Part shown: positions 840-64,000 of the stretch, one piece after another
How the letters are laid out: each line of letters starts with the position of its first letter
Numbering within the stretch: position 1 is the first letter of the stretch
Origin: Chondrosia reniformis
Taxonomy: Eukaryota > Porifera > Demospongiae > Chondrillida > Chondrillidae
DNA: 64,000 bases
Reading direction: 5' to 3'
NCBI GenBank assembly: GCA_947172415.1
Contig: OX359191.1
Coordinates: forward strand, 5,580,001 to 5,644,000
Program-made: the position numbers and the translations under genes
The notes under the pieces: model-generated
The model's database searches: none
Told to the model about the DNA's origin: nothing
What the model saw: the letters and a program-made list of their open reading frames with translations, nothing else

Positions 840-1428
840 TTAGATAGCAGTCTTGGTGTCAGTTGCTTCACTTTCATTTAACTCTTCTTGTTCTTCAATT
901 CCAAGCCTTTGCTTCATCTCCAATTCTTCTCCCCCAATGCTTCCATCTTCCTCCTTTAATGCATCAGTTCCACCAAATGAGCTGGTTGGTTTGGTTACAC
1001 TGACATACAAGGTTGACTTGGCAGTGGAATGCCCCAGTGTGCCTGTTGAATATAGAGTAGATTGCTTATATATCAAAAACATTTATCCTGCCCACTCATG
1101 TCTACAATATGGGAATACAGTCCACCTAAAAGGCATGAAGATGTTTTTAACAGTCGAAGCTTTAGATCTTAAATCTATTTAATTTCATTGCCTGTAGTAG
1201 TCAGCCACATTTCAATTGTTCTTTTATCTCCTAATAAGGAAACCAATACTGCTAATGAGTCCAAGAATGACTGTCACAAAACAGCAGTCTATGGTTTGGG
1301 CCATCTTTCAGAGTAGAAAGGCGGCAGCTCCAGTTCCCATTAAGTGGAAATATGTTGAAATTAATATACAAACATTATATGACATATACATTGGTACCTC
1401 TATTACTGCTGCTTGTTTTGAATATTTC
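840..1428 (-). CDS. Gene A cytoplasmic tail (31-nt microexon and last exon)
   Basis: Microexon 1398-1428 (phase 0 to 1) encodes [10 protein letters not shown]. The last exon 840-1042 encodes [20 protein letters not shown], then an acidic segment ([17 protein letters not shown]) ending DTKTAI-stop. The microexon is the only segment I found that connects the phase 0 donor at 1505 to the phase 1 tail, and gene B keeps it (46204-46234). Tail sequence is conserved with only a few substitutions. Confidence 0.78.
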
Positions 1429-4400
1429 CTACATTTTATAAAATGTGAAAGTTATTTGAAAGACTCTACGTACATTACACTGTCTATAAAGGTTTGAAAT
1501 TTACCTTAACTCTATTACAACTGGGCAAGAAGGTCTTCAGTTTGTTCCAAACTTTATCATGTCTTACCACGTGAAGAAGAAATATAAAAAATCCCTATAT
1601 CATGCATATTAGGTAGTTAATGCATAGTAACGACAGATTCAGATTTATATATACAGTAAGCGAGTATAATACGTAAATGTGTTATAGATAAGGAAATATA
1701 TGTGTGAAAAACTAAAAGATAGTACGAACATATATATACACAATGAATTTTTTTACCTGAAGTGATGTAGACACAATAAACAAAACTGCAAAAACCTCAG
1801 CTCCCGGTGCTACAGCAAACAGTCCAATGATCCAAGTGAAGCAGAAAAGTGGCAACAATATGATTATGGTCTTCAGCAGTTGCCTATAAATGGACATATG
1901 AATGATTAGAACTCTACTTATACTGGCTTTTGACTGTTTTGGTAAAACTCACTTTCCTGTTTCCATGAAATGGCTTTTTGATTCTCCATGTTGATTTTTA
2001 GGTTTGGAATTCTTACTCTTAATAAGAGATGCCACACTCAATATGAGCAGGATGGCATTGACCTGAGCATATACATATGGTAGAGTTTTACTTTTCTTAA
2101 ATATAAATAGATACTAATATTGTGAGTTAAAAAGTAATGTATATAGAAAGTATGCAGTGCATGTTTGAAAATCAATTAAACTTACAATGACAATCATAAT
2201 CATTGGAGCTATAAAAGCCCAAATCAATCCGAGATAGGGAGGTAGCCAGCAACTGTATACAGTGTAGTATTAGTGCTTGAATTATCAAGGTATATAAATA
2301 TATATATTAGCTTACGCATGAATATCTTCATAAAATGGACTATCTTTATTCCAATCCACTCTTCTGAAATAATACTCATTCCTAGAAGCAGCCGTTATAA
2401 TTACAATTGGAAGTGGGAGTCCTGAAGTCATAAAAATACACTGTATGTGAAAGGCAGTTGTTCTTAATGGCTGCTATACAAAAGATTGATATGTACATAT
2501 ATATATATATACAGTATACGTATATTCTTTTTGTAAAACAACACTTTATTCAACTGTTGGTTTCAGATTTCTGTAAGACACCCAGCTATATGTAGCCCAT
2601 GAGAGAGCCAAGGACTCACAAAAGATCAAAATGAAGACACAGACTCTCAGGGTCACTGATGAAGGGTGGAATTCTAAAACAGTTGTCTGACCCAATGGAG
2701 CAAAGAAGAAAATGAAACCTCTTGAATCCTCATCCAAATCTCTCATTCTCACTAGGTTTAGTCCTTATATAGGCCTTCTATTATAAAGTAAACATAGCAT
2801 GTTCAAAAATGACGTGTTGGATTATTTATATGTTAATATATACTTGATAAGCATTCACATTGTTCACACGTAAATTTTCAACTCTTCCACAAAGATGACA
2901 CAGACACAGTACATAAAACAAACACTTGTGGTTACTCTTTACCCCAGCCAAGGGATGAGTAGAGGTAAAGCCACTTCCTTTCATTTGCTCCAAATACTTT
3001 CACCAGAAGGTTGTAGATTTGAACAGCTTCACACAGAGACCAAGTAAACACACAGAGGAAGAAGTAATGTAAAAGACCCGTGATGGACTTGCAAATTTCC
3101 TATATACGTACATTTAATGTAGTAATACATGTATGTCCAATAAAGTAAGATTTAACTCTAATTAACAGTGGATTTATAAAACAAGATGTGTGTAAGTCAT
3201 TATATTTTCTGTTTACGTTGACCTCTATAGTCAGCATTTAATAATATCAATTTAGACATATATTGCATGGTTAACAAATTTCATTTAGTACAGATGTGAA
3301 ATATTAAATTTATACATATGTATTACATGTTATTCGGATACATGGAAAGCATCCACATCTGATATACTTACGGGTGATCCTGTAGCAGTGCTTATTCCAG
3401 CCAAAAACACTATCAGACCACAACTCAGAGCAATACACATGTTAAAATGAACAAAATTATGAACCTTGCTGACCAGATCCCTTCTGTAATATACATAGCA
3501 AAGCATGAATGCATAATAAGTATTTCAATTAAGCATTTACATTTTAATTTACAGGACTCTGAGAACACTTATGACTAACCTCAAAGAAATGAAGAAAATT
3601 ATCGAAAGTACAAGACAAAAGAGAGAGACACTACATCCTATGTAAGTCAGCACATCAAAAGCCAAAGGATTTGCCTGTAAGAAGTAGTGCAATATCAAAT
3701 AAATGTCCTTCTTCAGTACTCTTTTCAACATCAATAATGCAGTACTTACAACATCCACAACTTGCACTAGTACAACAAAACTTGTCAGATGTACACTTTC
3801 ACAAGTAACATGAGTTGAGTTAGTAGTTTCATTGAAGATTTCCTTTACTAGAGTTACACCATCTGTGGACCATCCTCCAGTACCATTGTTGGCCTCAAAG
3901 TCCCAAAACACACAGGTATACTGAAGCTTCTTCCCATTTGGAACTTTTATAGCGTACACATTATCCTACATGCATATGGTATTATACTCCTAGCTATATA
4001 ATCTTTGCGAGTATATATTTGGTATTATAGCAAGAAATACTTATACTAAATGCACACATACGTATACGTATACATATTATAATTTACATAGAAAGGTAGG
4101 AAGAAGCATATATATATATACGTACATATATGCAGTTGTATTGGTATATGCTGTTGTGTGTATGGATACCTTTTCAGTTAAATTAACAGACCTTCAAAGC
4201 AAAGTCAATCTCTACTTTCTCTTCAAAATCTTTAGGTACAGTTGGGTTCTTAAATCCAGTTATCTGACTTGATACAACCAGTGAAGCTGGCACTATCTCA
4301 GCATCTTTTGGGAAATTCCCTTTCCTATATACAAGGTTACTCACAGCAACACTGCAGTAATATATGTAAATTCCCTCATAAACTCACTCCTTTTCGGAAA

Positions 4401-7400
4401 GTTGTAATGGGAGATATTCTTCCATGTTATTCATTGTAAAACTGACTACTTCAACTGAATCTTGCTCATCATCAGTTACAGAGTTAGTTGGGGATTCAGT
4501 GGTTGTAGGACCTCCTGAGTTGACTGCTGGTTGAACTGAGGTTTCTCCTATGAATGGAATATTTTTACAAAAAATAATGATTATGATCAAGTGATTGATA
4601 ATAGTTACATACCTTTACTCTCTTTTATAGCAAAACCAACAAAAACCTGAGGGATCTTTAACTTTGGTACTAATCTGTGGTTTCTAAATGCTTTAAAATC
4701 TACACTTCCTGGAAATAGAACAGCAGATCCTTTGGGTTGTCTGAAGTTCAGCTTATTTCCCTTTAAACCTATATTCAAGCGTGTATACATATATTTGTAC
4801 CCCACTAGTACTGTTGCACAGACAGTATTTCAGTGGGTAATAATTTTTTGCAGGAGGGATAATATCTGATATTATCCAGAAATGTGATTGTGTTTTTCAA
4901 ATGAAAATGCAACTACGTAACACTTTTTAAAGGAATAAATGGAAATATATAGCAAAGGTAATATCAATCATGCAGTCAATTATAATTGAAAACAGTGGGT
5001 AAAATAGGATATTAAAATCCCGCTTCTTCAGACTTTCAGCATAATACAATTACTTGGCTTCATCTTGGCCTTGTATCGTATTTAGCCAGCAGTCCTGGAA
5101 AGTGGGTTATAACTATTACATGCATATACATACATTAAGCACATAATATATGTATGTAAATTATGTTCAATATTGCATAGATGTATGTATATATAATTCA
5201 GATTGACAGTAACATGGACTTGCCAAAGTTGGGTTTGATCAATTCAATTTCTACTTTGCTAGAAGACAAAACATTTCCAACACTATTAGCAATTTTTTCA
5301 GTAGTGTTAAGCAGACTAGTAGATTGTGCAGGGCGCCTTTCTTCTTCAGCCTTTCTTGCTGTGGCAGAGAAAGCTGGCTCATTTTCTTTGCTTAGTACAT
5401 TACTGATAACATTGGCCACATTCTATAGGAATAAATACAATATAAATGTAGGAAGTAATACAATATACGTAATACTATATACATTTAGAATTATGTCTAC
5501 TCTTATATATCATGGGACATACAGTATGTATGGCCCATGAAAAATATAAAGTACATATCGGATGATGGTATATAGAATACATATAGATATAGGAGCTAAA
5601 TATTTCATGACAAAAGGATGTCATGAATAATTATTAAATAAATATTAATATACTAATTGCAAACCTAACTGGAATGTTTATAAGTCACATATAATATGGG
5701 GAACATATAAGGACAAGTATTTAATGATATAATGGATATATAAGTACATACATGCTTATCCTTAACTAAATGTAAATATATGTAATCCATACCTCTATAG
5801 TGTCATCTGTTACATTACTTTCAGGAACAACCAGATCATTGTTCTCACTCAACCTTTATCACAATATACATACATACGTATATATTATACTCTCTATATA
5901 TCTATATATACTACAGATACCTGCTAATGTAAGAGAATTTATGAAGAAATTCAAAAATGAAATTAGAGAGTGCACATCAGGAAAAGTAACAAAACAAGAC
6001 AGCTAGTGATCATGTGATAAGGGTAACCATAAAGAAGTGGCATTCTGTATGAAATGTGAAGCTTAACCATACACATGTATTGCTGAAGTAGGGATGATGT
6101 GCCTAAAAGCACAATTTTGTTTGAATGCAATTAATGCGGGCACTCATGATCAGGTAGACAAGGAACTTCAGCTGATGGGTCCTTCCTGATGAGATATCAT
6201 TAATAACCAAAAACACTTTATTGTCAATTTATGAAGTGATAAATGATACTACAGGGTGGCCATTCCTGTAGCCACCATCCCTACTTAGAGAGCAGTACCA
6301 TTCCCTTAATACACTGTGAGTTAGGTAAACCTTTTTATATAAATAGTGTGAATGTTTTTTACAACTTGATTTTTGATATATAAATGCATCAATCACTAAC
6401 TGTGATATATCAACCAGTACTGATACTGTAGTTTCTAGGTCTTTTGGAAAGATTGTCACATTTTGAGGCTGAGTAACATTGCTTAATTGTAAGGTGATAA
6501 ATTCAACATCTTTGCGTGCTATTTCTGTTAATGGTTCATCTGTTTCGTTTGCACTTCTTAGAACATTTTTAAGACTTTCAGTCTAAACAGATATTGGTAT
6601 ACATAGAAAAATATACATTAAAGGTATATAAATAGTCAATATCACTTGTTTATATATTACAAGCTCACTTTAATAGCTACAGCTCTAAATTCTTCAGATT
6701 CACAATTGGACACATTAATGTTTTTGTCCCATTTTACATTTGAATGACATCTTCTTGAGGCATAATCTATAGTGTCAAACATATATTATACATACATACA
6801 CACAAACATAGTTACCATCCTCAGATTGATACACAGAATAATCCTGTTAGATTAGCAGTATTTCTGTTTGTGTTGACATAATACCACTATAGACAGCATT
6901 AATCACTCAAATCAACCTAGCTATTAGCTATCTATAGCTGTAATATACAAAGAAGTTTCGATGTAATCTAAAGTATACATTAATGAAATGACCATTTGTA
7001 ATAAGGGAACATGTAGACTATCATAATGTTCCAGGTCAATTGGCAACTATGATATTTATACACATATGAAATATACGTATATACTTATACATAACATGTA
7101 TGTATAATCTTATATAAATTCTGAAAGAGGTACATACGTACATCCATTCTAGTCATAATACTAGTAGGCTATATAAATATATAGTCTTTTAATAATTCAT
7201 GTGCCATTACAGTAGCACGTATTCATGACTAGTATTTCAAATTGTTTGCTTAGACTACGTACCTTTATTGTATACAGTGCCTTAAATAGTATACAAATGT
7301 AATTGGTAAATTAAATGTCATGTTAACTGACTCAAGGCTCTGCTTCCCTTTCTTACTGGACACAAAACATGTGCAATTTCACCAAATCCAGTTGAGGGCC

Positions 7401-10400
7401 ACTTTAAGTTCCATTTACTATCTGTTTCATTTGCACACACTTGAATATTGTTGTCTGTGACAAATGATTTAGCAAATAAAGAGATATCTACATATCTTTT
7501 ACAATAAATATTAGAAAGTACAGTAGGTAAACATCATGAAAAGGGGAAAAAATGAATAAAGCCATTGCTGAATGGAAATCAAGATTGCTGATAATAACCA
7601 ACAGCGCATGCTCTACCAATTGCAATTAATGTACAATTCATGTTTCATCTATTATAACTAAATATAAGTATTCATACTAATTAGGGGTGATTCTCTTTTC
7701 AGAAGAAGCTGATAATAAAATTAGCCCATTTCCAGTGGGAGGCTCAATCTTAAGCACTTATCACTGGCCACCATCACATTGTTCACAAGTTATAAGATAC
7801 CCAACATTCCCACTCTGGCATCCTAGGGGATCATTAGGGCTACAGACCTGATAGGTACTGCCAGTAACTCAGCTCTCAAAAGTAGGGCCAGTAACTAAAG
7901 AGGGACAGGTTTTATATTGCTTATTGATACATTTCTTAACTAGTCATGGGCTAGCATACAGGAATAGACACTATGAATAAGTTTAGCAATCTTGTCTTGA
8001 AGGAGATTATGGGGGATAGCTGTAGATAAGGTGGAGAATCTATCTATTCCATATTACTAAACAGTCCAACCAAGTGATTATATAATATTCAACAATCCAC
8101 AATAAAGGAAGCCCTGCATATCTTCCTCAGAGAACAGGGAGAATGTGTGAACAGGGATAAGGATCTCAGCATTGATTGTTGCTGGAAGTACCTCATCCAG
8201 TGAGAAAGACAGAGACAGAAGGTTAAACCTAGGCCTAGATGACGTTATATGACATCATTAGTTTCTGGTCAATCAGTGTGGAGATAACTATAGTTTGTAA
8301 AAACAGATTTCTCATTGTCAATCAGTTTTTGGTTAGCATATATGCTATACTTTGATGAAGGTCACAGCACATGGTTGAAACTTCAGTAATTTATTTTGAA
8401 TTGTTGTATGCTAATCACTTGGTTGGAATCAAAAGACTCAATATATAGCCAACCCAGAATCCCACTTCGCAACTATGTATATGGATGTACACTCATACAT
8501 ATTTTCCATTACAAAATGTTCCGTATGTGTTCCATAAGTAATTATAAAAATATATAGGTCTATTGTGAAAAAAGTGATATCTCTATAATCTACCACAATA
8601 TGCATATGTTGGCTAACTTTTGTAGCAGATTTGCATGATTGTGGATTATTAGGATTTTATATACAAAATTGTACCATACAAATATAATGTAAACAAATCA
8701 AAGAGAGCCCATTTTATATTAAATGGATATTCGTATATACGTATGTAGTTAAATGGAAAAAAGCTTTCACAATTTTGGGAGACCTGACTTACCAGAACAT
8801 AACTTTCCAGGAACAAAAGGACATTCATCCTGGAAGAATTTTAACATACAGTTACGCATTCTTAATGATATATGACTTTGTATACATCGAAAATACCTTA
8901 GAATCTGGCATTCCATCAAAGTCACTATCTAGCTCACACTTTTTCTCCGCATTAGCAATAAATGGAGGCACACACTACAAAAGTAGCAAAAATTAATGAA
9001 GATCTGGTCTATATAGATCGTATGATCTATATATGTATATCTACCAGTATAGTCAATAAAACTATTAATATCATAGTCCCTCACTTTACATCCATATATG
9101 CCAGAACAGTCACATGATCTTCCTTCACCAATACATAGTTGAGTAACGGTATCCTCATTTCTTGTGTTATCACAAGAGCACTCATCTTAACGTACAGGTA
9201 TAAAGGAAAGATTACAATATTAATATCTTAAGTAACAATGAAACAATTATTTAAGTATTAACTAAATAAGTAGTATGTAATAGTTTAATTTAAGAAATGT
9301 CAAATTCTTGATCATGAATATCAAACTGGAATATTCAGAGGATGCACAACATTTTACCTATCATGTGCAGGTCTTTTCAAGTTTAATAATAAGTAGTCTA
9401 ACCATGAAAATTCCATTTATAAACACTAATGGTACTCATCAATGTACGTAGGAAGTGCGATGTCACATTCCAGTTACATCAATATAATATGGCGGTTAAT
9501 TGTTGAGCTCGTTGTAGTGTTATGAAACAAAAATTTCAAGATATTTCAGTCAGCAGACCTTCATCAGACTGAAACATTTTGAAATTCTTGTTTCCTAACG
9601 CTACGGCAACATGTACTTGCTATGTTTGTCTTCATCTATATTTATGTTCTTACACACATACTTGAAGCTACATATACTGAAGATGTATTGTCTAGTGGTA
9701 TGTCTTTAGGCTCAATAGACGCATCTTCTTGCAGGAGTATTATAATAGTTAGTGTCTCATTGTCAAGTGTAACAACCTCAATGGAGAAGTTTGCAAATGT
9801 TTTTGAATCAGTTGTATTACTTCCATTTACAGCTGTCAAAAGGGTATTGATCTAATATCAAATATATATACGAAAGCTTGAACCATGTGCACATATGCAT
9901 AAGTATATACGTACGTATATTACTGTACTTATACGTACGCATATACATATATGTATTGTTAGAAAAGGGAGTTAAATTGTATTATGCAATGACTATAATA
10001 AAACATGAATAATCATTTGAATCATTGGTTGCCATATAGGATTTTCAGTTCATCAGCCAAGATAGAACTTTGGCTATTTAGCTTGCTCAGTGTAATAAAT
10101 ACAGTCTATCATATTTACATCATAATCTTTGTACAAGCTTTGTGAAACTAACTCTCATTGTTTATGAGTGTTCAGTCTAATATACTTATGTACTAGCTGT
10201 AGCCTTCAACTTCTTTATTATTAAGCCATATACTTGTTATGGACTACATAAGTGAAAGGCAGTTATTCAAACTTACCACCAAAGTGCACTCCTGGACCAA
10301 GCCAAGACAAGACGTCTGTCACTTGGCTGTGCATGGTTGGTTAGCCGCAATGAACACAATGATTATTCATCTTTTTGTGTGTTTATTAGTTAGCCATTCC

Positions 10401-25400: not shown

Positions 25401-28400
25401 AAGTGCTGTTAAAGTATACTTCCACTCTTCCTTCATTAGGGTGAGGGCTACCAGATAGTCTGACTTTCAGGCTGTTAGCTGCCACAAAAATTAACAAGTA
25501 AAAAATGAACAATGCATTTAACAACATCTACGTATATAAACCAAGTATAAACTGCGTATGAATATACAGTCCAAACCAATTATATGCTACATATGTAGTC
25601 TAATCTACATATATATACAAAGATTATACAATAATCTGCACGTCTTATATATGATTGTTGTCTGCACCTTTGCACAACCAACTTTATAAATGTATTGGAA
25701 AGTAAAATTACACAAATATGGACACAGAGAGTGAGATAAAGTTGATCTGATTACAAAAGCATGTTTTTGCTATATAAATATTCAAATTGATAAGTTATTT
25801 ACTATGTACTTCATTATATTTAGTTTACTATAAAAAAACATACTGCATAATATACACATATACGTATATGTAATTGTGGTTTATTGAAAGTACTGTATAT
25901 AGTGGGAAAATTGCCAATTTTGGCATTTGACGAGTTTTATATTTGGTGGATTCTTAATTGTTTAAATGGAAGACGGTACCATTGCATTTGAAATCGAAAT
26001 TTGGCGAGGAATTAAATTTGATGAGCTTCCAACTACTCGACAAATCGCCAAATTTACATAAATCCTCGCCAATTTTCCTGCTATAGTTGAAATACATAAT
26101 TTCACATTCTTACTTAAATGAATGAGTGATGCATGATCTTACTTGCACACACCACACCAACATCACTGCTATGACTACAATGTGATGATGTTGTAAATCC
26201 ATTATGGTAACAGTCTGTTATGTTATTCTCTCTTCCTGTACAGGAGAGACCAGGCATCCACACTGGACCACTTCCTGCACCATAGTAAGCTGATGTTCTG
26301 TATTGAAGTGCAAATGGATATCCAAGCATTCTACAGACTACATGAGCATTTGTGATATTCCATCCATTATGACACACTGTACCCCAAGTGTTGCTATAGT
26401 ATAACTCCAATCTACCTTCATTAAAAGTTGCACCATCAGCAGTAACCAGTCTAATTGATGTTGTTTGATCTGCAAACAAGGATTGTAATATAGCATTTAA
26501 ATGAAATATAGTATATATGTATGTACAATGCCAGACCCTATAATGTCTAACTAACATTTTGATCTGCATGCTTATTGTAGAATCTAAACTTTAATTGAAA
26601 TAGTAAAGTGGATAGACCCTAACATTAAATAATAAGGACATGCAATTATATGAAGACATAAAGAATATAGTCTTTAAAATGTGAAATTATCAAGGTTAAA
26701 TGAATAACTATAATCATACAGATATATACGTACTGTAGTTACATGTAACACACCATTTTCTTACATGCTACATCTACGTACTTAAGAGAAGAAGGACTAT
26801 GGGGAACTAAAGTTAGTGAGAGATGATGAAGTTATGAAAGGATTGTAGGCAATTATAATATACGTATGTATGTTACATTAATAAAGATTATTAATGTAAT
26901 AATCTGACTTTTACAGAAAAATGGACTAACATGCATTACAAGACACAGGTACGTATATATACGTAGGACAGATTACATAGGTGCTACTGTTACAATAGTC
27001 AGGGTTCTCAAATTAATCTCACTTGTACACTCAGCTCCAAGATCTCGTATACTGCTACTGCATGATGTACCCCATCCAGAGTGAGAACATTCTGTTATAC
27101 TAGACTCTGTTCCACTACACTCAGGCAAATAACCTGATGTGGTCCCACTTCCTTCTCCAAACTGTCCTGCTCCCCAAGCTCTTATAGCAAAGGAATATCC
27201 AAGCATCTTGCAGATTACATTAGCCTCTCTGATGTCCCAACTGTTGCTGCATACTGAGCCCCAAGCATTGTTGTAGTACAGCTCAACTCGTCCTTCATTT
27301 GGTTGACTACCACCAATCAGTCTGGCCTTTATTGTTTCTATTACAAATATATAACATATTATAATTTACAAGCTAGGTATTAGCTAAATTACTGCATATA
27401 GTTGAATCAATAATTATAAATACCAACCTGTATAGCAAACAACTCTTGCATCATAGTAATGCCAATAGTAATAGTAGTAGTAGTAGTACTGAGTATATAA
27501 GCTTGGTGTTTCAATACAATCAGCTATACTCCTTTCAGATCCATGGCAATTCAGAAATGTTATGTTTGGGGTATAAAGATTATTAATGTAATAATCTGAC
27601 TTTTACAGGAAATGGACTAACATGGCCAGTTAGAATCAAGTATAAGCAAAAAGTAGCTAGTATGCTTAAGGACTGTCTTGTGTTACCCCATATTGTGTTA
27701 CCCCACCTCCAAAGAAATGTTACTACTAGAAGACCTAAGGGTAGACTTACGTAATATGTCCTACTTTTGTCTATAGTTATGCTGAGTCTGTTTTACCTGT
27801 ACAAGCAAGTTTACTAATAGATTTATAATTAATTCATAAAAGTTAATTGGACCTACATTCCTTTCATAAAATTAAATTTCATCATGTGTCTTAGTTAACA
27901 CCTTATTTAACTTTTGGCGCCAAAATAGTGTATATAAGGCCCCTAGATTTAGCATAGTGAGCCAAGGATTCACAGAAGATCAAGATAAAGAAAAAGACAA
28001 AGACTCCCAGGATCACTGATGAAGGGTGAAATTCCCAGAAACGGCTGTCTGACCCAGTGGAGAAGAAGATGAAAGAAGGGAAAAGAAGGAAGAAAAGACT
28101 CCTGTATCTTCATCTAAAGCTCTCTTTAGGTTTAGTTCCCCTATAGGCTCTTTTTACAGAATAGGCATATAGCATGTAGGAAAATGGTATCTTAGATTTT
28201 TCATGCATTACAAGACACAGGTACGTATGTATATAGGACATATACATAGGTATAAGTCTTTTAGTATATAGTAACATTATTTGGAGGCAGCATAACACAG
28301 TACGTACGATGTATGTACTTGAATCAGAGACTGACAGGATAGGACAATTTTAAAGGTTTAAGGTTATGGTATTTGTAACCCCGTTTGATATATATTACTA

Positions 28401-31400
28401 TATAATTGCAAATTTCAGCCTGAAAACTACCAAAGTCACTATACAGCATCATTATCATTGAACTCTGGATATTACCCCATCATTTCCAGTAAAGTTCCCC
28501 TTTTCATCTATATTATCAGTTCATTGTCATGACAATGGGGTATATACGTACATACATACATATGTATACAGCATATTCATAAATCACCCATAAGAATGAA
28601 TAATACAAAAATTACTTTACTACTATAAACTTGTTCAAAACATATAGAAACATTCCATTAATCAGCAATTCATGCTATTATGGAAGAGGTAATCCCCTTA
28701 TTATCAGACAGTTACGTACAATGGCTTACATATATAAACAGTATACAATTACATAGTGTGAGTAACACTACACTACTCAACAGTCAGGGTCAATAATTAA
28801 ATACCAACCTGTATAGCAAACAACTCCTGCATCATAGTAATGTGAATGGTAGTAGTACTGAGTATATAAGCTTGGTGTGTCAATATTACAATCAGCTATA
28901 CTCCTTTCAGATCCATGACAATTCAGATATCCAAACCAAATTGGTCCACTGCCACTCCCAAATCCAAGGGATGAAACCCTACCTGCTTGGATGGCAAATT
29001 GGTATCCAAGCATTCTGCAGACTACACTGGCATCTCTAATATCCCAGGAGAAGTAACTAATTGTTCCCCATTCACCCTTAACATTAACTTCCACTCTACC
29101 CTCTGCTGAATGTGATCCATCAACAAGTCTGATTGGGATAGGACTCTTTAAAGTGTAAGGATCTATATATCATTGAAATGGGATACAAGTAATTAATTAC
29201 ATTTATATATAATATACACATATATATGGTGGGATATGTATATACACATATATTTGAAACTAATGTAATATATATTATATATAACAATGACATGCATAAT
29301 GACTTGTATAGACAGGCTTACCAAAACATTTAACGACAATATCCTGATTGTACTGACAACTATGTTCAAACCATCCATCATGTAGACATTCTGTTATATT
29401 TGTCTCATTTCCATTGCACTGTACATTATTCAACCAGCGTACTCTACTGCTGCTTATTCCATTAAAGCCTAAAAATTGAATTTCCACAGCATACAGGTAG
29501 CCAAGCATCTTGCAGATCACATGTGCATCTCTTATATCCCATCCGGCAGGACAGACTGTTCCCCAAGTATTGTTGTAATACACTTCCACTCTTCCTTCAG
29601 CAGGATCAGTAACACCTGACAATCTTACCTTTATGCCAAGGGGAACCTCTACAGTTCAACAAAGGGATGAATATCTGTCTTATCTGTAACTTAACAGGTA
29701 CGCATATCTAATTTTATGTATATATATTATAATATACATGTATTCAGCTTTCAACATCAACAACGTCCTATCTGTACATAATTCAGTATATACTAAAAAG
29801 ATCTATATATAGTATATATAACCCAAGACATGCTTAAGTCTAAGTACTGTACTTGGGACACCATTACATGCAGAATATCAACTCCAGAACAAGTGTTTCA
29901 AAAAACAATTATCAGAGAGTTCTCCATAAGTATATAGGTTGAAACATACTTCTGTGTTTGGGTACACTATCCTTACTTCAGCTGTCATAGTTTCCCAAAA
30001 ACGAAAGTAATGTGTACGTATGGTTAAATCACTAATGTAAATTATGCCCTTTCTGTATGGTTAACCTTATACATGATCACTGAAATAGTTTAGTTACTTT
30101 TACCAGATGTGCTACTCATGCACAATTATAAAACAACCATCCCTAATTCTAGATAAATATCATTCTTTTCAGCAGATCTGACTGCAAGTATAAGATTTGA
30201 TTTTAAGAGAGATTATACTATCTGTGGTGTACGAAATTGTAAATAACTACGACTAGTTAACTGTCCAATTAGTTATAACTATGCCACGGGTGAAACAATA
30301 ACATATTCATTTTTGTATATATATACTTGAGCAAACTACTCCTGCATCTTGTGAATGTCCACCAGTGCAGTACTGACTCTGTCCCCATCCATAGTATACA
30401 TTACAAAAAGCAATGTTAGACTCTGTTCCACTACAACTTAAATAGGTCAACCAAATGGGTCCACTTCCTTCCCCAAAATAAGCTGATGTGGCATGAATAG
30501 CTCCAGGGTATCCCAACATGTTACAGACCACTTTGGCAGCATTAATGTCCCATCCAAGGTTACAAACTGTTCCCCACTCTCCTGCAAAATACACTTCCAC
30601 TCTTCCTTCACTTGAATGTGACCCACCAGCAAGTCTCACAGTGACATTGGATAGTCCATTGAATAATAAAAGTTCCCATATACAACTAAACCGATTTACA
30701 CTGCATGTACGTATGTCAAAACAATTAAATCACTCACTGTAGCAGACAACTCCAGCATCTCTATCATGTCTACAATTGCTCACACCAAGTCCACGATGTG
30801 AACAATGAGTTAGATTGTTCTCAGAACCATCACAAATCACATTATCCAACCAAACTGGACCAATTCCCTCTCCAAAATATGCTGATGATCTAGCCCTTAC
30901 AGCATAACTGTATCCAAGCATTCTACAGACTACATTAGCATCTCTAATGTCCCATCCTTCATCACACACTGTACCCCAAGTGTTGTTGTAGTAGACCTCC
31001 ACTCTGCCTTCAGCAGGATGACTTCCATCAGCAAGCCTTACAGATATGGACTGAGGAAATGCTGTGTGCACAACAAAAAGTGACTAAAGAACATCGAAAC
31101 TTACTACGTAGGTTGTACTCTATACAGAATATAATACAAAGCCTTAATTAATAAACTTATGTACCTGAACATACAATTGCTGCAGTTGAACTTGTTGAAT
31201 AGTAGTAATTGCTATAGGTGCAATTATAGATACTGGTTTCTGTTCCATCACATCCAAAGGAATATGCAACACTATACCAGTAACCAGATCCATATATTCC
31301 ACTACCTGTTCTCGTATATATAGCATAAGGATATCCCAGCATTCTACAGACAACTTGAGTATCATTGAGATCCCAACCAGATGAGTGTATTGCACCATAT

Positions 31401-33335
31401 GAGCCAGTGTTGGGATTGTACATTTTCACTCTCCCCTGAGCTGGATGTTGGCCATCAACTAGTCTGACATACTGTGTCTGTGGGTATTCTGAGTGTATAG
31501 AATGAATATAAGTAAATCTAGTCAGACTGCATATTTATCAGAGAGTACAGTAGTAATCTATAAGTAGGGATGACCAAAATAATTTGGTGCATGGTAAGAA
31601 CACTGCCATTATGATGGATAACTGTTGGTGATATGGTGCACATGGAAGAAGATGTTTGTGCATTCCTTTCTACAATTGTGGTTGCAACTTAAAGTTTATA
31701 AAATTAATTATATCATTTACCTTTTTATAAGCACTCAGATAAACTCTATTATATTTACTAGCTATCGACAGACATATGTATATATCTAGTTTAACAAACA
31801 AAATTGGTGTATGATGCAAATTATGTATATGTATAATAGCTGTATTCTTAAATAACAATCATAAATATGTAACTTGATTAGCTATTATGGCATGTAGCTG
31901 TACCTATAATGTAGAAGAGACATACATCAAGATTGGACAATGGGACAAGATTGCATGGTGTTGGTGACACTGGAATCTGCAGTACTGGCCTAGGGACAAG
32001 CTACTCCAATTGTGCTTGGATAAATTTCAACTGGAGCTGAAATGACTCGAACAATGACTGCAGAAAATGATGTCTTCATTGCTGTCAACAATCTCATCAA
32101 GCAAAGAACAAGAGAAATTTTTAAAAATAGGATGCGTGTTCAATCCTTCGTGATCATTCTCTTCCTCCTCCTTCCCTTCTTTTGTCCTCTTCATCTGTTC
32201 TTTCTCTTCCTCCTGCTGATCACAATCGTTGTCTTCTCGAGGTGAATACGAAGCTATACAGACGCTTCGTGAATCTTCAGAAAGGGCTTCTCCTCTTCTT
32301 AGCAATATTTCTGTCCTCTGGGCTGCTCTTTTTTCTTCTACGAGAGGCTTCTGGGTTTGTGCCCTACACGACCGCCTTCCAAACTCTCTTCTTCGTCTTT
32401 ACGTATATAATTTCTCCAACAGAAAGCTCTCCTTCAGCTCCCTCGGCTCTTAATTCGTATATCTTGTCCAAACGTTCAAGATACTCTTTGCCGTCATATC
32501 TAGGCGAATCGTTCTCCTGGTAGACGACGAGTATGTATTCCATTCTTTCGTTTGGTTTCGTTTCACGTTTGACTGCTACACGTATACGTAATTTGGTGCT
32601 TTCAACGCCTTCCCGAGAGCCGCCAACTATAAGCGTTAATTAGAAGAATAAATAACGATAGAATAAACGACAAATGCTTTAAACAGAAATTTCTAAACCG
32701 TCAAGCGACGATCACTTTGTCGCTTTTTGTTTACTCTTATCCGCTAAACGAAGACCGATTATCTGAAAAACGGCATTACCGTTACCTCTTTTTGGACGTG
32801 TACTGAACGTATATACATGATAGCTTGCCCCATATATAAAAAGTGCAAATAGAACATCTCACCTGTACACACAACTCCAACATCTCTATTATGATCACAG
32901 TTCTGCAAACCCCATCCACTGTGACTGCATTCTGAGATATCTGACTCATTACCTGAGCACTGTAAGTTGGATAACCAGACAGGTCCAGCTCCTTCCCCAA
33001 AGAAAGCAGCAGATTTTGCATCAAGAGCATGATGGAATCCGAGCATTCTACAGACTACATGAGCATCCCTGATGTCCCATCCTTCATCACAGACTGTACC
33101 CCAAGTGTTGTTGTAGTACACAACCAGTCTTCCAGCCTTATACTGAGTTCCGTTTACTAACTTTGCAATGATAGTGGCCCTTGTAGCTTCTACAACTATA
33201 TATGAAGAAAGTGACACTTAAATATGCTTAAAGAGCAATAAACGTACATCACCCTATACCTTTTGCTGGATCATTATTCACAGCAAGAATTGCGAAAAGA
33301 GCGAGTGATAGTAGGCCAACAGTACGCTGAGGCAT
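840..33335 (-). CDS. Gene A: SRCR-array adhesion G-protein-coupled receptor, full-length 48-exon model
   Basis: Predicted plasma-membrane receptor. The model joins a signal-peptide exon, 17 spliceable SRCR exons (an 18th, type D of block I, has lost its acceptor), two linker exons, HRM-like, Cys-knot and TSP3-like modules, a GAIN domain with GPS, seven transmembrane helices and a cytoplasmic tail. Every junction used is GT-AG except one GC-AG. Phases agree at all junctions, and exon lengths total 9516 nt, divisible by three (3171 aa plus stop). All SRCR exons are phase 1-1, so units can be gained or lost without breaking frame. In known adhesion GPCRs the GPS cleaves itself and the new N-terminus acts as tethered agonist; an SRCR array in front would bind proteins or polyanionic ligands (inference). 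Alternative: the locus could produce two or more transcripts, because in-frame hydrophobic leaders can be read at 25527 and 20519. Transcripts would settle this. Confidence 0.8.
1505..3674 (-). CDS. Gene A seven-transmembrane domain, adhesion-GPCR class (eight exons)
   Basis: Exons 3580-3674 (TM1), 3372-3483 (TM2), 2943-3099 (TM3), 2316-2421 (TM4), 2186-2252 (ECL2/TM5), 1953-2062 (end TM5/ICL3), 1757-1883 (TM6 to start TM7) and 1505-1594 (end TM7). Class B2 marks are EICKS before TM3 and ACWLPP in ECL2 (disulfide pair), [20 protein letters not shown] in TM3, [10 protein letters not shown] in TM4, FTWIIGL in TM6, and [12 protein letters not shown] across the last junction. All eight exons join in phase. 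ICL3 is Lys-rich ([10 protein letters not shown]). Confidence 0.9.
2576..2825. repeat. Interspersed repeat R1, copy in TM3-TM4 intron of gene A
   Basis: Sequence found four times in the window (2576-2825, about 27955-28200, about 45025-45200, 47395-47650), always on the same strand. It contains an open frame that translates to hydrophobic segments and looks like a membrane exon, but TM3 and TM4 exons join in phase without it. No terminal repeats identified. Confidence 0.6.
3750..4768 (-). CDS. Gene A GAIN subdomain B and GPS autoproteolysis site
   Basis: Four exons: 4613-4768 ([20 protein letters not shown]), 4388-4547 (Thr/Ser/Asp/Glu-rich insert), 4192-4324 ([24 protein letters not shown]) and 3750-3965. 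The last holds the [41 protein letters not shown]. It has the two Cys, both Trp and the HL|T cleavage triad, so self-cleavage is expected and TSFVVLV would be the tethered agonist. Present and nearly identical in gene B (48781-49814). Confidence 0.85.
5224..6582 (-). CDS. Gene A GAIN domain, helical subdomain A (three exons)
   Basis: Exon 6401-6582 (phase 0-2) has [20 protein letters not shown] and [15 protein letters not shown]. Exon 5793-5853 (2-0) has [20 protein letters not shown]. Exon 5224-5422 (0-1) has [35 protein letters not shown] and [11 protein letters not shown]. The last exon ends at a GC donor (TTTG|gcaagt). No GT donor in that region gives the phase 1 needed by the next exon. 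The acceptor of 5793-5853 could instead be six bases further in (5847). Confidence 0.7.
6669..7454 (-). CDS. Gene A third HRM domain (two exons)
   Basis: Exon 7332-7454 encodes [31 protein letters not shown] and VRKGSRAL. Exon 6669-6766 encodes [20 protein letters not shown], then C, and a helix ending AVAIK. The C-P...G.A.R.C...W......C order is the class B2 hormone-receptor motif. The donor of 7332-7454 is gtcagt, chosen because it alone gives phase 1; gene B keeps it. Confidence 0.7.
7455..8792. repeat. Gene A intron with tRNA-like SINE remnant and repeat body
   Basis: At about 7560-7630 lies a damaged copy of the tRNA-like sequence better preserved at 54035-54125; half of its A-box is deleted. 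The next 700 bp (7680-8460) match gene B 54180-55230 with no coding frame. Two bistable-looking inverted stretches (around 8350-8420) resemble the hairpin at 9486-9620. No exon found. Confidence 0.45.
8793..9185 (-). CDS. Gene A Cys-knot module copy 2 and TSP3-like repeat
   Basis: Three exons. 9085-9185 encodes [18 protein letters not shown] and [12 protein letters not shown]. 8897-8974 encodes [20 protein letters not shown] with GMPDSK. 8793-8829 is a 37-nt microexon encoding [12 protein letters not shown]. Joined, the last two give a clear thrombospondin type 3 pattern (DxDxDGxxDxxDxCP). Phases 1-0, 0-0, 0-1. Confidence 0.7.
9486..9620. repeat. Hairpin element beside exon 9662-9851
   Basis: Inverted repeat with arms of about 45 bp around a loop containing cagaccttcatc. 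The left arm runs GTTATGAAACAAAAATTTCA and the right arm is its near inverse. A matching hairpin sits in the same intron of gene B (56785-56890), so it predates the duplication. Confidence 0.7.
9662..9851 (-). CDS. Gene A GAIN-A-like segment, copy 2
   Basis: Encodes [37 protein letters not shown] and a tail with [11 protein letters not shown]. The pattern (helix with LL..AVNGS, later a PKD) resembles the start of the true GAIN at 6401-6582 ([19 protein letters not shown]). Phase 0 to 1. Gene B has it at 56938-57127. A hairpin repeat lies just downstream in the next intron. Confidence 0.62.
10597..11074 (-). CDS. Gene A TSP3-like Ca-binding repeat and second HRM-like domain
   Basis: Exon 11000-11074 encodes [20 protein letters not shown]. 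With the start of exon 10597-10902 (DDCIGCCE) it forms a CxLDxDxDKxPDxxDxC calcium-binding pattern like thrombospondin type 3. Exon 10597-10902 continues with an HRM-like domain ([27 protein letters not shown]) and an acidic helix ([11 protein letters not shown]). Phase 0 at both ends. Confidence 0.65.
11132..11487 (-). CDS. Gene A GAIN-A-like segment plus Cys-knot module, copy 1
   Basis: Exon 11358-11487 (phase 0 to 1) encodes [20 protein letters not shown] and [15 protein letters not shown]. Exon 11132-11256 (phase 1 to 0) encodes a cysteine-rich unit, [12 protein letters not shown] then [20 protein letters not shown]. The same order returns at 9085-9851, so this is one of two copies of a composite module. 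Confidence 0.65.
11562..11794 (-). CDS. Gene A first HRM-like (hormone-receptor motif) exon
   Basis: Encodes [12 protein letters not shown], a VTVSIRCS segment, [18 protein letters not shown] and [11 protein letters not shown]. The order of cysteines, the GxW and the C-terminal SxC fit the HRM found before GAIN domains, although a CCP/sushi-like fold is an alternative. Phase 1 to 0. Conserved in gene B at 58907-59139. Confidence 0.65.
11965..12208 (-). CDS. Gene A linker exons (Cys/Ser and Pro/Thr-rich)
   Basis: Two small phase 1-1 exons. 12119-12208 encodes [19 protein letters not shown] followed by a Ser-rich stretch with two cysteines. 11965-12018 encodes [18 protein letters not shown], a probable flexible hinge. 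Both are conserved in gene B (59440-59529 and 59308-59355, the latter six bases shorter). Confidence 0.7.
12339..12662 (-). CDS. Gene A SRCR 18 (block II, type I), last of the array
   Basis: SRCR exon of 324 nt, phase 1-1, with [66 protein letters not shown] and VLC; six cysteines. The gene B equivalent is 60017-60340. It is followed by short linker exons, so this is the membrane-proximal SRCR. Confidence 0.88.
13958..14457 (+). mobile_element. Nested TA-target DNA transposon remnant with transposase N-terminus
   Basis: Terminal inverted repeats CCGTAAAGCGACAATTGTAT and its approximate inverse, flanked by TA. The related element at about 51028 reads CTCTGTATATAAA straight across, which is the empty site with one TA. 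On the plus strand a short frame from 14118 ([12 protein letters not shown]) and, after a frameshift, [20 protein letters not shown] look like the N-terminal DNA-binding start of a transposase. The rest is missing, so the copy is non-autonomous. Confidence 0.75.
14759..15089. mobile_element. Foldback MITE, arms about 150 bp
   Basis: Near-perfect palindrome. Left arm contains AGTTAAAAGTAGGGATGGCA, right arm its inverse (TGCCAATCACCCCTACTTTT); the centre is around 14930. A second copy is at 51352-51676. No reading frame. Confidence 0.8.
15277..15603 (-). CDS. Gene A SRCR 17 (block II, type H)
   Basis: SRCR exon of 327 nt, phase 1-1, with [50 protein letters not shown] and VGVVC; six cysteines. 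The acceptor is atgtttgtag. The intron that follows in transcription order holds the composite transposon of 12.9-15.1 kb. Confidence 0.87.
16147..16464 (-). CDS. Gene A SRCR 16 (block II, type G)
   Basis: SRCR exon of 318 nt, phase 1-1, with [60 protein letters not shown] and GAEC; six cysteines. Donor A|gtgag. Confidence 0.86.
16549..16595 (-). pseudogene. Remnant of type-F SRCR exon (block II)
   Basis: About 47 bp corresponding to the last codons ([12 protein letters not shown]) and donor of the truncated F exon seen at 27428-27554. Homology then jumps to sequence found at about 28445 in block I, so roughly 0.9 kb present in block I is missing here. Confidence 0.6.
16958..17311 (-). CDS. 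Gene A SRCR 15 (block II, type F, four-cysteine)
   Basis: SRCR exon of 354 nt, phase 1-1, starting [17 protein letters not shown]2 is replaced (GTISYFSW) and C7 lies in a Tyr/His-rich loop without cysteine. C3, C5, C6 and C8 are kept. The twin is 28809-29162. Confidence 0.86.
17468..17794 (-). CDS. Gene A SRCR 14 (block II, type E)
   Basis: SRCR exon of 327 nt, phase 1-1, with [39 protein letters not shown] and VVVKC; six cysteines. The intron that precedes it in transcription order (17795-18460) is nearly identical to 29649-30326 in block I. Confidence 0.87.
18461..18805 (-). CDS. Gene A SRCR 13 (block II, type D)
   Basis: SRCR exon of 345 nt, phase 1-1, with an intact acceptor (cttttaacag) and donor gtatat. 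It starts [19 protein letters not shown] and has [30 protein letters not shown] and AGVVC; six cysteines. This is the functional reference for the damaged copy at 30327-30660. Confidence 0.86.
18894..19217 (-). CDS. Gene A SRCR 12 (block II, type C)
   Basis: SRCR exon of 324 nt, phase 1-1, with [49 protein letters not shown] and AGVVC; six cysteines. The twin is 30738-31061, with only a handful of substitutions. Confidence 0.87.
19321..19644 (-). CDS. Gene A SRCR 11 (block II, type B, four-cysteine)
   Basis: SRCR exon of 324 nt, phase 1-1, beginning [21 protein letters not shown]3, C5, C6 and C8 are present ([17 protein letters not shown]). C2 is replaced (AIEASGW) and C7 is replaced by a Tyr/Thr run. 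The twin is 31165-31488. Confidence 0.85.
20084..20407 (-). CDS. Gene A SRCR 10 (block II, type A)
   Basis: SRCR exon of 324 nt, phase 1-1, with [51 protein letters not shown] and VGVVC; six cysteines. The acceptor is attcatgtag. An open frame also runs through the intron to an ATG at 20519 with a hydrophobic stretch, an alternative but weaker start. Confidence 0.85.
20408..21091. other. Intron sequence upstream of SRCR 10
   Basis: No exon recognised. 20690-20880 matches, imperfectly, part of the 13.5-kb repeat body (tcaacgatg, gtttgcagtcgttttt). The frame of SRCR 10 stays open to an ATG at 20519. Confidence 0.4.
21191..23372 (+). pseudogene. YqaJ-type nuclease / PHD-finger accessory protein of ISL2EU-like element, broken
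   Basis: Starts around [16 protein letters not shown] (21191). 21661-22038 gives an open segment ([20 protein letters not shown]). 22558-22860 matches the YqaJ family start: [34 protein letters not shown], then a Cys-rich GVFEVKC segment. 23224-23372 shows a PHD finger ([31 protein letters not shown]) interrupted by a TAG and a TAA. Inactive remnant. Confidence 0.75.
23650..24731 (-). pseudogene. THAP-HTH-DDE transposase of the ISL2EU-like element, broken
   Basis: 24731-24438 encodes a THAP zinc finger: [13 protein letters not shown] (first two Cys), [21 protein letters not shown] (Cys/His) and YVPTLF. A frame change leads to 24520-24050 with a coiled-coil ([19 protein letters not shown]) and helix-turn-helix ([20 protein letters not shown]). 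After a probable internal deletion, 24066-23818 gives the DDE_Tnp_4 core: [36 protein letters not shown] and [12 protein letters not shown] further shift gives [17 protein letters not shown]. At least three frame breaks make it inactive. Confidence 0.82.
24832..25130. repeat. Repeat flank between ISL2EU-like element and SRCR 9
   Basis: A GC-rich 60-bp stretch (GCCGGCGCCACTGGTGCGGC and a partly inverted partner ATGACCGCACC), then a GTAGGGATGG-family fragment at 24968-25070 in inverse orientation. No coding frame. Confidence 0.45.
25155..25478 (-). CDS. Gene A SRCR 9 (block I, type I)
   Basis: SRCR exon of 324 nt, phase 1-1, with [53 protein letters not shown] and GVFC; six cysteines. Upstream the frame stays open to an ATG at 25527, giving [17 protein letters not shown], which resembles a signal peptide. 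The same bases also make a good polypyrimidine tract ending in gtggcag. I use the spliced reading, but an alternative first exon here is possible. Confidence 0.85.
25479..26142. other. Intron between SRCR 8 and SRCR 9
   Basis: AT-rich with TATACGTATA-type palindromes. 25930-26080 has an inverted pair (gccaattttggcatttgacg and ggcgaggaattaaat against tcctcgccaatttt), a likely small foldback. No exon. Confidence 0.4.
26143..26469 (-). CDS. Gene A SRCR 8 (block I, type H)
   Basis: SRCR exon of 327 nt, phase 1-1. It starts [20 protein letters not shown], with [40 protein letters not shown] and VGVVC; six cysteines. The twin is 15277-15603. No copy is present in gene B. Confidence 0.87.
27023..27337 (-). 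CDS. Gene A SRCR 7 (block I, type G)
   Basis: SRCR exon of 315 nt, phase 1-1. It starts [20 protein letters not shown], with [31 protein letters not shown] and GAEC; six cysteines. Three nucleotides shorter than its block II twin (16147-16464), in frame, near the C7 loop. Confidence 0.86.
27428..27554 (-). pseudogene. Truncated type-F SRCR exon remnant (block I)
   Basis: The 3' third of an F-type SRCR exon: an open frame from [12 protein letters not shown] through a run of Tyr codons to DARVVCYTG, followed by the normal donor (gttggta). Upstream homology stops abruptly at about 27554 in unrelated repeat DNA, so no acceptor or domain N-terminus exists. It suggests a former tenth SRCR unit between F and G. 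A shorter remnant of the same exon lies at 16549-16595. Confidence 0.7.
27555..28808. repeat. Block I-specific intron segment with repeat R1
   Basis: From 27565 it repeats the sequence at 26893-26935 (aaagattattaatgtaataa), then has about 350 bp of unassigned DNA and an R1 repeat (27955-28200). From 28445 on it matches 16597-16957. Block II lacks 27475-28445, best explained by deletion there because its truncated F exon is shorter. Confidence 0.5.
28809..29162 (-). CDS. Gene A SRCR 6 (block I, type F, four-cysteine)
   Basis: SRCR exon of 354 nt, phase 1-1. It reads [19 protein letters not shown], so the usual C2 is Ile-Ser-Tyr; further on, a Tyr/His-rich loop ([15 protein letters not shown]) lacks C7. 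C3, C5, C6 and C8 remain. The same paired loss occurs in 16958-17311 and in gene B 61776-62132, so it predates the duplications. Confidence 0.86.
29322..29648 (-). CDS. Gene A SRCR 5 (block I, type E)
   Basis: SRCR exon of 327 nt, phase 1-1, starting [20 protein letters not shown]. Motifs are [37 protein letters not shown] and a C-terminal VVKC, with six cysteines. It has N-glycosylation sequons (NNT, NET, NIT). The twin is 17468-17794 and the gene B copy is 62307-62633. Confidence 0.87.
30327..30660 (-). pseudogene. Gene A SRCR 4 (block I, type D) with lost 3' splice site
   Basis: The reading frame of this SRCR is open and complete ([44 protein letters not shown], six cysteines), with its donor at 30321-30326. 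Compared with its twin at 18461-18805, a 22-bp stretch holding the acceptor (ttttaacag) and the first codons is deleted at about 30660. No usable AG in the right phase remains, so the exon is probably skipped. Skipping leaves the frame intact because neighbouring exons are phase 1-1. Confidence 0.7.
30738..31061 (-). CDS. Gene A SRCR 3 (block I, type C)
   Basis: SRCR exon of 324 nt, phase 1-1. The acceptor is gcacacag; the donor reads ACA|gtgagtg. Motifs are [45 protein letters not shown] and AGVVC, with six cysteines. It is nearly identical to 18894-19217 in block II. Confidence 0.88.
31165..31488 (-). CDS. Gene A SRCR 2 (block I, type B, four-cysteine)
   Basis: SRCR exon of 324 nt, phase 1-1. 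It keeps [12 protein letters not shown] and the FGC..YNC pair but has SGW where other types have VCxxGW, and Tyr/Ser/Thr residues where C7 should be. Both C2 and C7 are absent while C3, C5, C6 and C8 remain. The region from YSVAYSF to YYYST is Tyr/Ser-rich. The counterpart at 19321-19644 has the same loss. Confidence 0.85.
31880..32825 (-). pseudogene. Inserted gene fragment of unknown family within intron 2
   Basis: About 945 bp present in block I but absent from the matching intron of block II (19645-20083), and richer in CpG than its surroundings. On the minus strand an ATG at 32543 opens 59 codons ([57 protein letters not shown]) to a TAG at 32364-32366. After that stop the translation continues in other frames ([17 protein letters not shown], then [17 protein letters not shown]). 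I do not recognise the family. No introns or poly(A) are visible, so a decayed retrocopy is possible but unproven. Confidence 0.5.
32863..33195 (-). CDS. Gene A SRCR 1 (block I, type A)
   Basis: Single-exon SRCR domain, phase 1-1, acceptor tatatag and donor gtgaga. Hallmarks are [38 protein letters not shown] and a C-terminal VGVVC. Six cysteines match the group A pattern (C2, C3, C5-C8). Its block II counterpart is at 20084-20407, from which it differs mostly in the N-terminal 20 residues. Confidence 0.88.
33260..33335 (-). CDS. Gene A exon 1: signal peptide
   Basis: The ATG at 33335 opens a 25-codon leader beginning [19 protein letters not shown]: a short basic start, a hydrophobic core, then NNDPAK. 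It ends in phase 1 at a GT donor (gtataggg) that joins exactly to the first SRCR exon and completes a Val codon. No strong TATA box is visible upstream. It is the best-supported translation start of the locus. Confidence 0.8.
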
Positions 33336-42666: not shown

Positions 42667-42807
42667 CTGAATAAAAATTAACTGACTGCAAAAAGGCCAT
42701 TTGCAGATGTACAACATGAGTAAAGATAGCATTTCTTCAATGATTGCTGATTCGTTCCATCAGATTCAACAGTTGGAACATCTCTATCATTGGATACCCT
42801 GTTATTG

Positions 42808-43178
42808 TCAGGCATAATGCTCTTGGGCTTCAGGGTCCATGGAGAGTGCAAGTGCTTTATTAAGATCCTGATCATACTGCCGCTCATCTCTTGAAAGCCT
42901 TCTACGCTTTGCATTAGATTGAACTTCTGAAGGGGATATCTCAACATTTGATTTCCTTTTTGATGACTTTTCTGCGTTTTTAGTTTCTTTAGCTGGATCT
43001 GATTTTCTTTTCTTCCTTTTGGTAGGTCAATCACTAAAATCATCTGTAAAAGAACGGGCACAATCTCAGTACTATTGGAAGGTCTATTAGCCCATCAATT
43101 TAAGTTCCTATATACAAATGGTACAAACCTTCATCATCCTCTTGAAAACCAGAATAGTAATCTATCTTCGCTTTATTC
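42808..43178 (-). pseudogene. RAD51AP1-like fragment with in-frame stops
   Basis: Two exons. 43129-43178 encodes NKAKIDYYSGFQEDDE. The next starts at 43043 with DDFSD, then TGA (43027-43029), then PTKRKKRKSDPAKE, SSKRKSNVEISPSE, RLSRDERQYDQDLNKALALS and a second TGA at 42808-42810. An N-terminal acidic DDDF-type motif, Lys/Arg-rich linkers and a YxxDLxxALALS helix resemble RAD51-associated protein 1. The stop lies six codons from the acceptor and no alternative phase removes it. Confidence 0.5.
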
Positions 43179-43850
43179 CTGTAGGATTTAAAATATACGT
43201 ACAACTCTACCAATCACACACGCTAACTCCAGTATTTCGTTAACTAGGCAATAATTGTATATGCCAACTTTTGAAAGACATAGTTGTATTATATGTTGAT
43301 TCTCCTACCCCACCTTGAAGATCTGCTCATTGTACGTATATACAAAGAAATTAATTAAGATAAACACCAGTTCAAGGTAACTCCTAGCTATATATATGCT
43401 GACAGACAAGCATTTAGATATATGATCTTTTGTTTCGCTTTGGCTCGTCATTTTCTCATGCATATAGTATTAAGGCCAAACGCTCTGGAGTGTATGCTAA
43501 TCAACCCATGAAATAATCACCTATGTACATCAAAGATTGATACTTTCCGGATATGCTATGTATATAAAATTGAAGTTTGCCTTAATGCAGCAGATGTTGA
43601 TATTGTGAACAGTCCTTAAGGGTCATTAAGATCAAGAAGAACCAATGAAGATATATTTAATCATTTGTTTGAAATTTATTCAATCTTGCAAGTGGCCATG
43701 TTTTATGCATTGTAGAGCACATGTTGTATTAATGTGGTGAAGGCATGTAGATTTCAATTGCCATTCGACCACAGAGGCATGGAGTCAAACAGTGGTCATC
43801 CATTTTATACAGATATCACATGTGACAGCTCTTTTTATTGTTTTTGATAA

Positions 43851-44187: not shown

Positions 44188-44394
44188 CTAAATCAAAAGA
44201 CATTTATCAAATTCTGTTTAAGAAAACACAAATAGCTTTCTTTAGTCCCGAGTAGCAAATTTTAAGAAATGAACCTAAGTCATCATATACCTTTTAAACA
44301 ATGAATGCCTTACATAGTATACTGTGCTGGTTCAGTCTACAAGTCACTAGTACATTAAAATGAACTATAGGTACAAATGTACATATATATAATT

Positions 44395-63890: not shown

Positions 63891-64000
63891 TGGGCACTCT
63901 CACTGGCGGCAATACACAGTAAAACTATTATTTCATTCATTTAATATGCTCATTTTTATTTTATTAAAACTTATATATTCATCATCTAATACTTTAAGAT

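Follow-up and report, generated by a model that had tools for sequence, protein, structure and literature searches.

The minus strand of a 64,000-nt stretch of Chondrosia reniformis chromosome 3 (C3:5580001-5644000, hereafter the window) holds a long series of SRCR exons followed by exons of an adhesion G-protein-coupled receptor (GPCR), which raises the question of whether the two parts form one gene and one receptor. Position numbers refer to the window unless a chromosome is given. The odChoReni1.1 assembly is reported as 117.37 Mb in 14 chromosomes plus the mitochondrion, chromosome 3 measuring 9.42 Mb (PMC12181767, consulted in excerpt); the sequence searched here amounted to 117,379,552 bases in 15 contigs, C3 comprising 9,415,654 bases. 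Very probably the locus, called G3 here, is a single protein-coding gene for a demosponge class B2 adhesion GPCR with a long SRCR N-terminus, working in the manner proposed below.

Gene model and domain content of G3

The predicted G3 model ran on the minus strand from an ATG at 33335 to a stop at 840-842, the same two ends as in the first-pass annotation of this DNA. It comprised 46 exons (1 signal-peptide, 17 SRCR and 28 tail exons) coding for 3117 amino acids, with GT-AG at every junction and a single terminal stop. Signal peptide, SRCR array, HRM repeats, GAIN, GPS and a complete 7TM region followed each other in one frame; the earlier claim of a single frame from SRCR through HRM and GAIN/GPS to 7TM thus stood. 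The frame measured 9354 nt here and 9516 nt in that annotation. Curated Pfam cut-offs were exceeded by all five modules, namely SRCR (E=0, 17 separate stretches), 7tm_2 (PF00002, 1.9e-48, profile positions 4-250 of 250), HRM (4e-13, two stretches), GPS (PF01825, 8.4e-11, full length at 1-45 of 45) and GAIN (PF16489, 9.5e-7, 8-208 of 210); TSP_3 fell under its cut-off. Among solved structures (PDB), ADGRL3 was the best match (7wy5, E=1.4e-48), followed by ADGRD1 and other adhesion receptors, and the top secretin-type receptor, CRF1 (7.7e-13), ranked above a few adhesion receptors. Regarding class B2 membership, GAIN directly preceded the 7TM region, the order was GAIN-GPS-7TM, and 7tm_2-type helices were present.

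With an SRCR profile derived from this region, 18 SRCR exons were detected on the minus strand between 12339 and 33195, in the order A1 B C D F G H I J, A2 B C D F G H I J, i.e., two blocks of nine, with no type E exon found in either. Upstream lay the signal-peptide exon (33260-33335, ending in a phase-1 donor), conserved in all four paralogues of the cluster described below. Block a consisted of A1 (32863-33195), B (31165-31488), C (30738-31061), D (30327-30636), F (29322-29648), G (28809-29162), H (27023-27337), I (26143-26469) and J (25155-25478). Beyond an inter-block intron (20408-25154), block b (12339-20407) consisted of A2 (20084-20407), B (19321-19644), C (18894-19217), D (18461-18805), F (17468-17794), G (16958-17311), H (16147-16464), I (15277-15603) and J (12339-12662). 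The two blocks were 94-95% identical over kilobases. Eight of the ten SRCR types (A, C, D, E, F, H, I and J) had six cysteines, and types B and G had three and four within the match, respectively, as counted in G1 and both G3 blocks (type E in G1 only).

The first-pass annotation had counted 17 of the 18 SRCR exons as spliceable, and the same number had an in-phase AG acceptor and a GT donor (phase 1-1) here. The remaining one, the D exon of block a, encoded an open domain but had no usable in-frame acceptor, because the acceptor-bearing stretch kept in its block-b copy is missing. It was omitted from the model; to judge from the symmetrical phase (1-1) of the block-b copy, skipping it preserves the frame. 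For the second I exon, the acceptor was set by hand and differs from the automatic pick.

The last SRCR exon and the HRM-like exon HRM1 (11562-11794) were separated by 544 bp, with matching phases (phase 1). Downstream, all on the minus strand, were cysteine-rich and TSP3-like exons together with HRM2 (10597-10902) and exon 9662-9851 (8793-11487 overall), HRM3 in two exons (7332-7454 and 6669-6766; 6669-7454 overall), the GAIN exons (6401-6582, 5793-5853, 5214-5422, 4613-4740, 4388-4547 and 4192-4324; 4192-6582 overall), where PF16489 matched and part aligned to ADGRL3, and the GPS exon (3750-3965), with the cleavage motif and the presumed tethered agonist. The 7TM exons matching PF00002 (3580-3674, 3372-3483, 2943-3099, 2316-2421, 2186-2252, 1953-2062, 1757-1883 and 1505-1594; 1505-3674 overall) preceded a 31-nt exon (1398-1428) and the terminal exon (840-1042), which encodes the cytoplasmic tail and the stop (840-1428 for the pair). 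Exons 11000-11074 and 8897-8974 were short and carried aspartate-rich motifs resembling thrombospondin type 3 repeats, under the TSP_3 cut-off; together with HRM exons they appear to have been duplicated internally.

Tail exons were predicted with a script gene finder combining codon, splice and conservation scores, run on each of the four paralogues. Core exons common to the paralogues were HRM1, HRM2, 9662-9851, the first half of HRM3, GAIN, GPS and most of the 7TM region. Elsewhere the runs disagreed: 11358-11487 and 11132-11256 were dropped from the G4 prediction and the DEDSDKIPD exon from that of G2, the GPS-TM1 intron was read through in G1 and G2, the final C-terminal frame was reached only in G1, and exon 1505-1594, last of the 7TM exons, was obtained only in G3. 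Given these inconsistencies between the four genes, along with added micro-exons and wrong ends, the raw output was not taken as the model. Alignments guided the manual placement of the 31-nt exon, the terminal acceptor and 3' end, exon 8793-8829 and the HRM3 junction; exons 11358-11487, 11132-11256 and 8793-8829 are the less certain ones of G3. Reading conservation directly from a comparison of open reading frames was rejected, as non-coding frames matched too, the paralogues being about 92% identical across the tail region.

The HL/T cleavage motif of the GPS was intact in G3 and kept in all four paralogues. Aligned to ADGRL3, the sponge GPS lacked two of the four cysteines, which, from GAIN structures, we take to be a matched disulphide pair lost together. 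Autoproteolysis in G3 therefore appears likely, as does a tethered agonist with T as its first residue.

Tandem paralogues, selection and the probable unity of the gene

G3 is one of four head-to-tail, minus-strand copies. The SRCR profile called 67 SRCR exons in the 239 kb around the window, distributed as 10 in G1, 20 in G2, 18 in G3 and 19 in G4. A two-block array was found in G2, G3 and G4, while G1 had one block. The next paralogue, G4 (45662-64000, minus strand), runs past the window, which contains its 3' tail and 4 of its 19 SRCR exons. The segment between the tandem receptor genes (39783-44863) had 87-95% matches beside the paralogues; one of its frames (43854-44084) weakly resembled CCDC34 (23.2 bits, cut-off 35), and three others had no Pfam match. 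A second gene may have been co-duplicated there with the receptors.

The tail of G3 is under purifying selection. All 1227 codons were comparable with each paralogue, and dN/dS was 0.41 against G1, 0.37 against G2 and 0.46 against G4, values that became noisy once the tail was cut into parts (small parts reached 1.38 or gave no defined value). Tail exons were 96.1-96.9% and introns 89.4-90.7% identical to those of the paralogues, with a single 3-nt exonic insertion, in G2. Pooled SRCR types B to J gave dN/dS of 0.40-0.71 over all 21 block pairs, and type A alone gave lower values (0.09-0.47). Between G3 and the other genes, dN was 0.059-0.087 for SRCR B-J compared with 0.025-0.029 for the tail; as dS was also higher in the SRCR exons, this denotes faster change overall and is no proof of positive selection.

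In trees, the three A2 copies formed a clade (97% support) distinct from A1. With B to J pooled, the two blocks of a same gene paired at 100% in G3, 92% in G4 and 61% in G2. With B and C alone, the G4 pair and the G2 pair did not group and the G3 pair reached 68%, while H and J gave 100% for the G2 and G3 pairs and 67% for the G4 pair. When the two G3 blocks were aligned to the paralogues, both alignments broke around the missing E exon, at 18416/18424 and 30282/30290, with the same offset of 11866. Block trees and matching break points indicate that much of the array has been homogenised within a gene while A units hold their position, a receptor gene here showing concerted evolution across its tandem domain array.

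Whether each unit is one gene was addressed by counting exons that should be unique. The signal-peptide exon had four strong matches in the 239 kb, each adjoining an A1 exon, the remaining matches being weak or tiny, and HRM1, HRM2, GPS, TM3, TM7 and the terminal exon had exactly four matches each, one set per gene. Neither the signal-peptide exon nor any of these six tail exons was found between the blocks of G2, G3 or G4. Each unit therefore has one start and one receptor tail, neither of them between blocks, and the predicted linkage of SRCR to GPS-7TM rests on one open model in G3 and on this one-to-one arrangement in the four paralogues. These counts go against a split in which block a codes for an SRCR-only protein of its own (secreted, or ending in some unrecognised way) and the GPCR begins at block b with nine SRCR domains, since no signal-peptide exon accompanies A2 in any of the three two-block genes. 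In addition, the phase-1 acceptor of A2 is conserved in all three, and J of block a in G3 retains a good phase-1 donor. Such a division into two transcription units would find some footing in G1, where a single block suffices for a gene, and in the inter-block introns, which are long (4.7 kb in G3, 7.4 kb in G2 and 5.6 kb in G4) and whose conservation between paralogues is limited to stretches near the ends plus a few short pieces that do not match in position, leaving room for a second promoter or an early end. A scan of these introns in the three genes for signal-peptide-like frames gave none, a weak result as the donor demanded was stricter than that of the true exon and there was no positive control. 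On this evidence we judge two units improbable and infer that splicing crosses the 4.7-kb gap of G3.

A larger share of doubt concerns the main product of the single locus. Alternative splicing or internal promoters could yield several isoforms with varying SRCR number, the full 17-SRCR form being rare, which would be compatible with the gene model and would challenge no more than the status of the long form as main product. Since each of the 17 modelled SRCR exons is symmetrical (1-1), any subset would stay in frame, and one SRCR exon has already lost its acceptor; the SRCR dN/dS values below 1 argue against wholesale disuse of the array. We hold a predominance of shorter forms possible, though we lean against it. 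The lost acceptor and the near-identity of the two blocks would also fit a double block created by misassembly, or a decaying pseudogene. As the two-block plan recurs in three paralogues, where A1 differs from A2, and as all 18 SRCR matches and the entire modelled tail are open and under purifying selection, an artefact of either kind is very hard to credit. The single gene with a long SRCR array is retained as the preferred reading.

Candidate related receptors elsewhere in the genome

A genome search with the HRM2 exon, in which all 67 candidates were scored, returned 49 matches, of which 23, at E<=3.1e-16, were on C1, C2, C3, C7 and C9; at least some of the other 26 were HRM1 exons of the same genes, as within the window. 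SRCR totals for the genome are lower bounds (150 of 893 candidates scored). Three of the loci, on C7, C2 and C9, were examined, with linkage taken from position and strand rather than from a gene model. At C7:7.284-7.303 Mb (7284001-7303000), at least five SRCR exons were followed by FN3-like frames (one tested against Pfam) and then by relatives of six exons of the HRM-GAIN-7TM chassis, 42-63% identical; the stretch examined starts just before the first SRCR exon. At C2:7.895-7.913 Mb, a chassis HRM had two SRCR exons upstream of it, along with FN3-like frames (one tested) and a retroelement. The retroelement-like frames, at about C2:7901500-7905500, stand between the FN3-like and SRCR exons of this candidate receptor gene. 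At C9:1.664-1.674 Mb (1664001-1674000), Calx-beta frames (two tested) preceded a chassis HRM exon, and no SRCR exon was found in the 10 kb.

Another array, at C3:6337224-6350581, showed 25 SRCR matches about 545 bp apart, many equal in score, among the candidates scored. The neighbouring stretch C3:6354001-6363000, separated from it by 3.4 kb, displayed an HRM just under the cut-off, a GPS (6.2e-6) reading CYCDHFGDYAAIQ and a frame that looked GAIN-like by eye and had no Pfam match; the reading of this locus covers these two flanking stretches. Downstream of the GPS, a single hydrophobic segment led into a basic tail and a stop, for which reason the locus was rejected as another 7TM receptor. 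It is apparently a single-transmembrane relative without HLT, in which 25 SRCR domains would be carried on an HRM-GPS stem. No paper on a protein combining GAIN, SRCR and a single transmembrane segment was found in the open-licence PMC literature.

Grouping these loci allows a tentative and, to our mind, rather unlikely generalisation, namely a large family in which one conserved HRM-GAIN-7TM chassis would carry exchangeable phase-1 arrays (long SRCR, SRCR plus FN3, perhaps Calx-beta). In its SRCR members, block duplication and homogenisation within genes would make the arrays grow and turn over, with less change in the signalling half. If true, it would amount to a recognition repertoire diversified in the germline and coupled to G proteins, sorting microbes in a filter feeder.

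Proposed working and comparison with known receptors

Judging from domain content, the signal peptide of G3 would direct the receptor to the cell surface, and GAIN would cut itself at HL/T, the SRCR-HRM-GAIN fragment remaining attached to the 7TM portion. The SRCR array, which would reach 18 domains if the D exon were somehow used, may bind multivalent ligands, the likeliest being polyanions and glycans from microbes or the matrix. Either binding or traction could then uncover TSFVVLVQV as the tethered agonist and switch on G-protein signalling. Surface delivery, autoproteolysis, ligand class and signalling are thus predicted from sequence, and coupling of pattern recognition to a tethered agonist is plausible by analogy. 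Sponges eat bacteria and also host them. Should the model hold, a single sponge molecule would unite recognition of the scavenger-receptor type with GPCR signalling, and a faster-changing outer array on a steadier signalling half would provide named candidates for how sponges tell symbiont from food. In Aplysina, one SRCR gene and one GPS-bearing gene were reported to respond to microbial patterns (PMC6208332, in the part consulted).

Parts of this architecture occur in several known systems. ADGRL3 (Latrophilin-3, PDB 7wy5) shares the GAIN-GPS-7TM layout and the HLT motif with G3 but has four GPS cysteines where the sponge GPS has two, and is not known to carry an SRCR domain. The HRM/GAIN/7TM module predates animals according to a choanoflagellate GPCR paper, whose consulted portion does not mention SRCR (PMC12716839). 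Placozoan adhesion/secretin GPCRs likewise bear a recognition domain, although a C-type-lectin one (CTLD) and not SRCR; they account for 28 of the 36 CTLD receptors described there (PMC6321704). BAI1/ADGRB1, an adhesion GPCR without SRCR, is listed with lipopolysaccharide as a ligand, ENT and TSRs forming the binding part, in a 2026 adhesion GPCR review that mentions neither SRCR nor sponges in the portion searched (PMC13197933).

Multi-SRCR proteins of sponge and sea urchin resemble G3 in being expanded and partly tandem (158 of 296 in Amphimedon). Most of the sponge SRCRs described there have three exons per SRCR, whereas the G3 array has one; in a word search of that main text, "GPCR" was absent and "7tm" occurred once (PMC10855680, seen in part). 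The closest parallels are Aq712029 and Aq715659 of Amphimedon queenslandica, demosponge adhesion GPCRs with multiple SRCR repeats, as modelled for G3, reported by Krishnan et al. in 2014 along with at least eight sponge adhesion GPCRs with HRM and called unique to those authors' knowledge (PMC4302439). The accessible text speaks of "multiple repeats" without an SRCR number and describes no tandem cluster or two-block array (PMC4302439). The first-pass annotation knew of no characterised example of such a receptor; this holds for function, as no functional work on SRCR-bearing adhesion GPCRs was found among the open-licence PMC papers reached, but not for the architecture, given these two receptors. 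An SRCR-bearing adhesion GPCR is therefore already known from Amphimedon since 2014 (PMC4302439), and what Chondrosia adds is the length of the array, its two-block structure, the clustered family, and the conserved HRM-GAIN-7TM chassis found elsewhere with other upstream exons (SRCR plus FN3, or Calx-beta).
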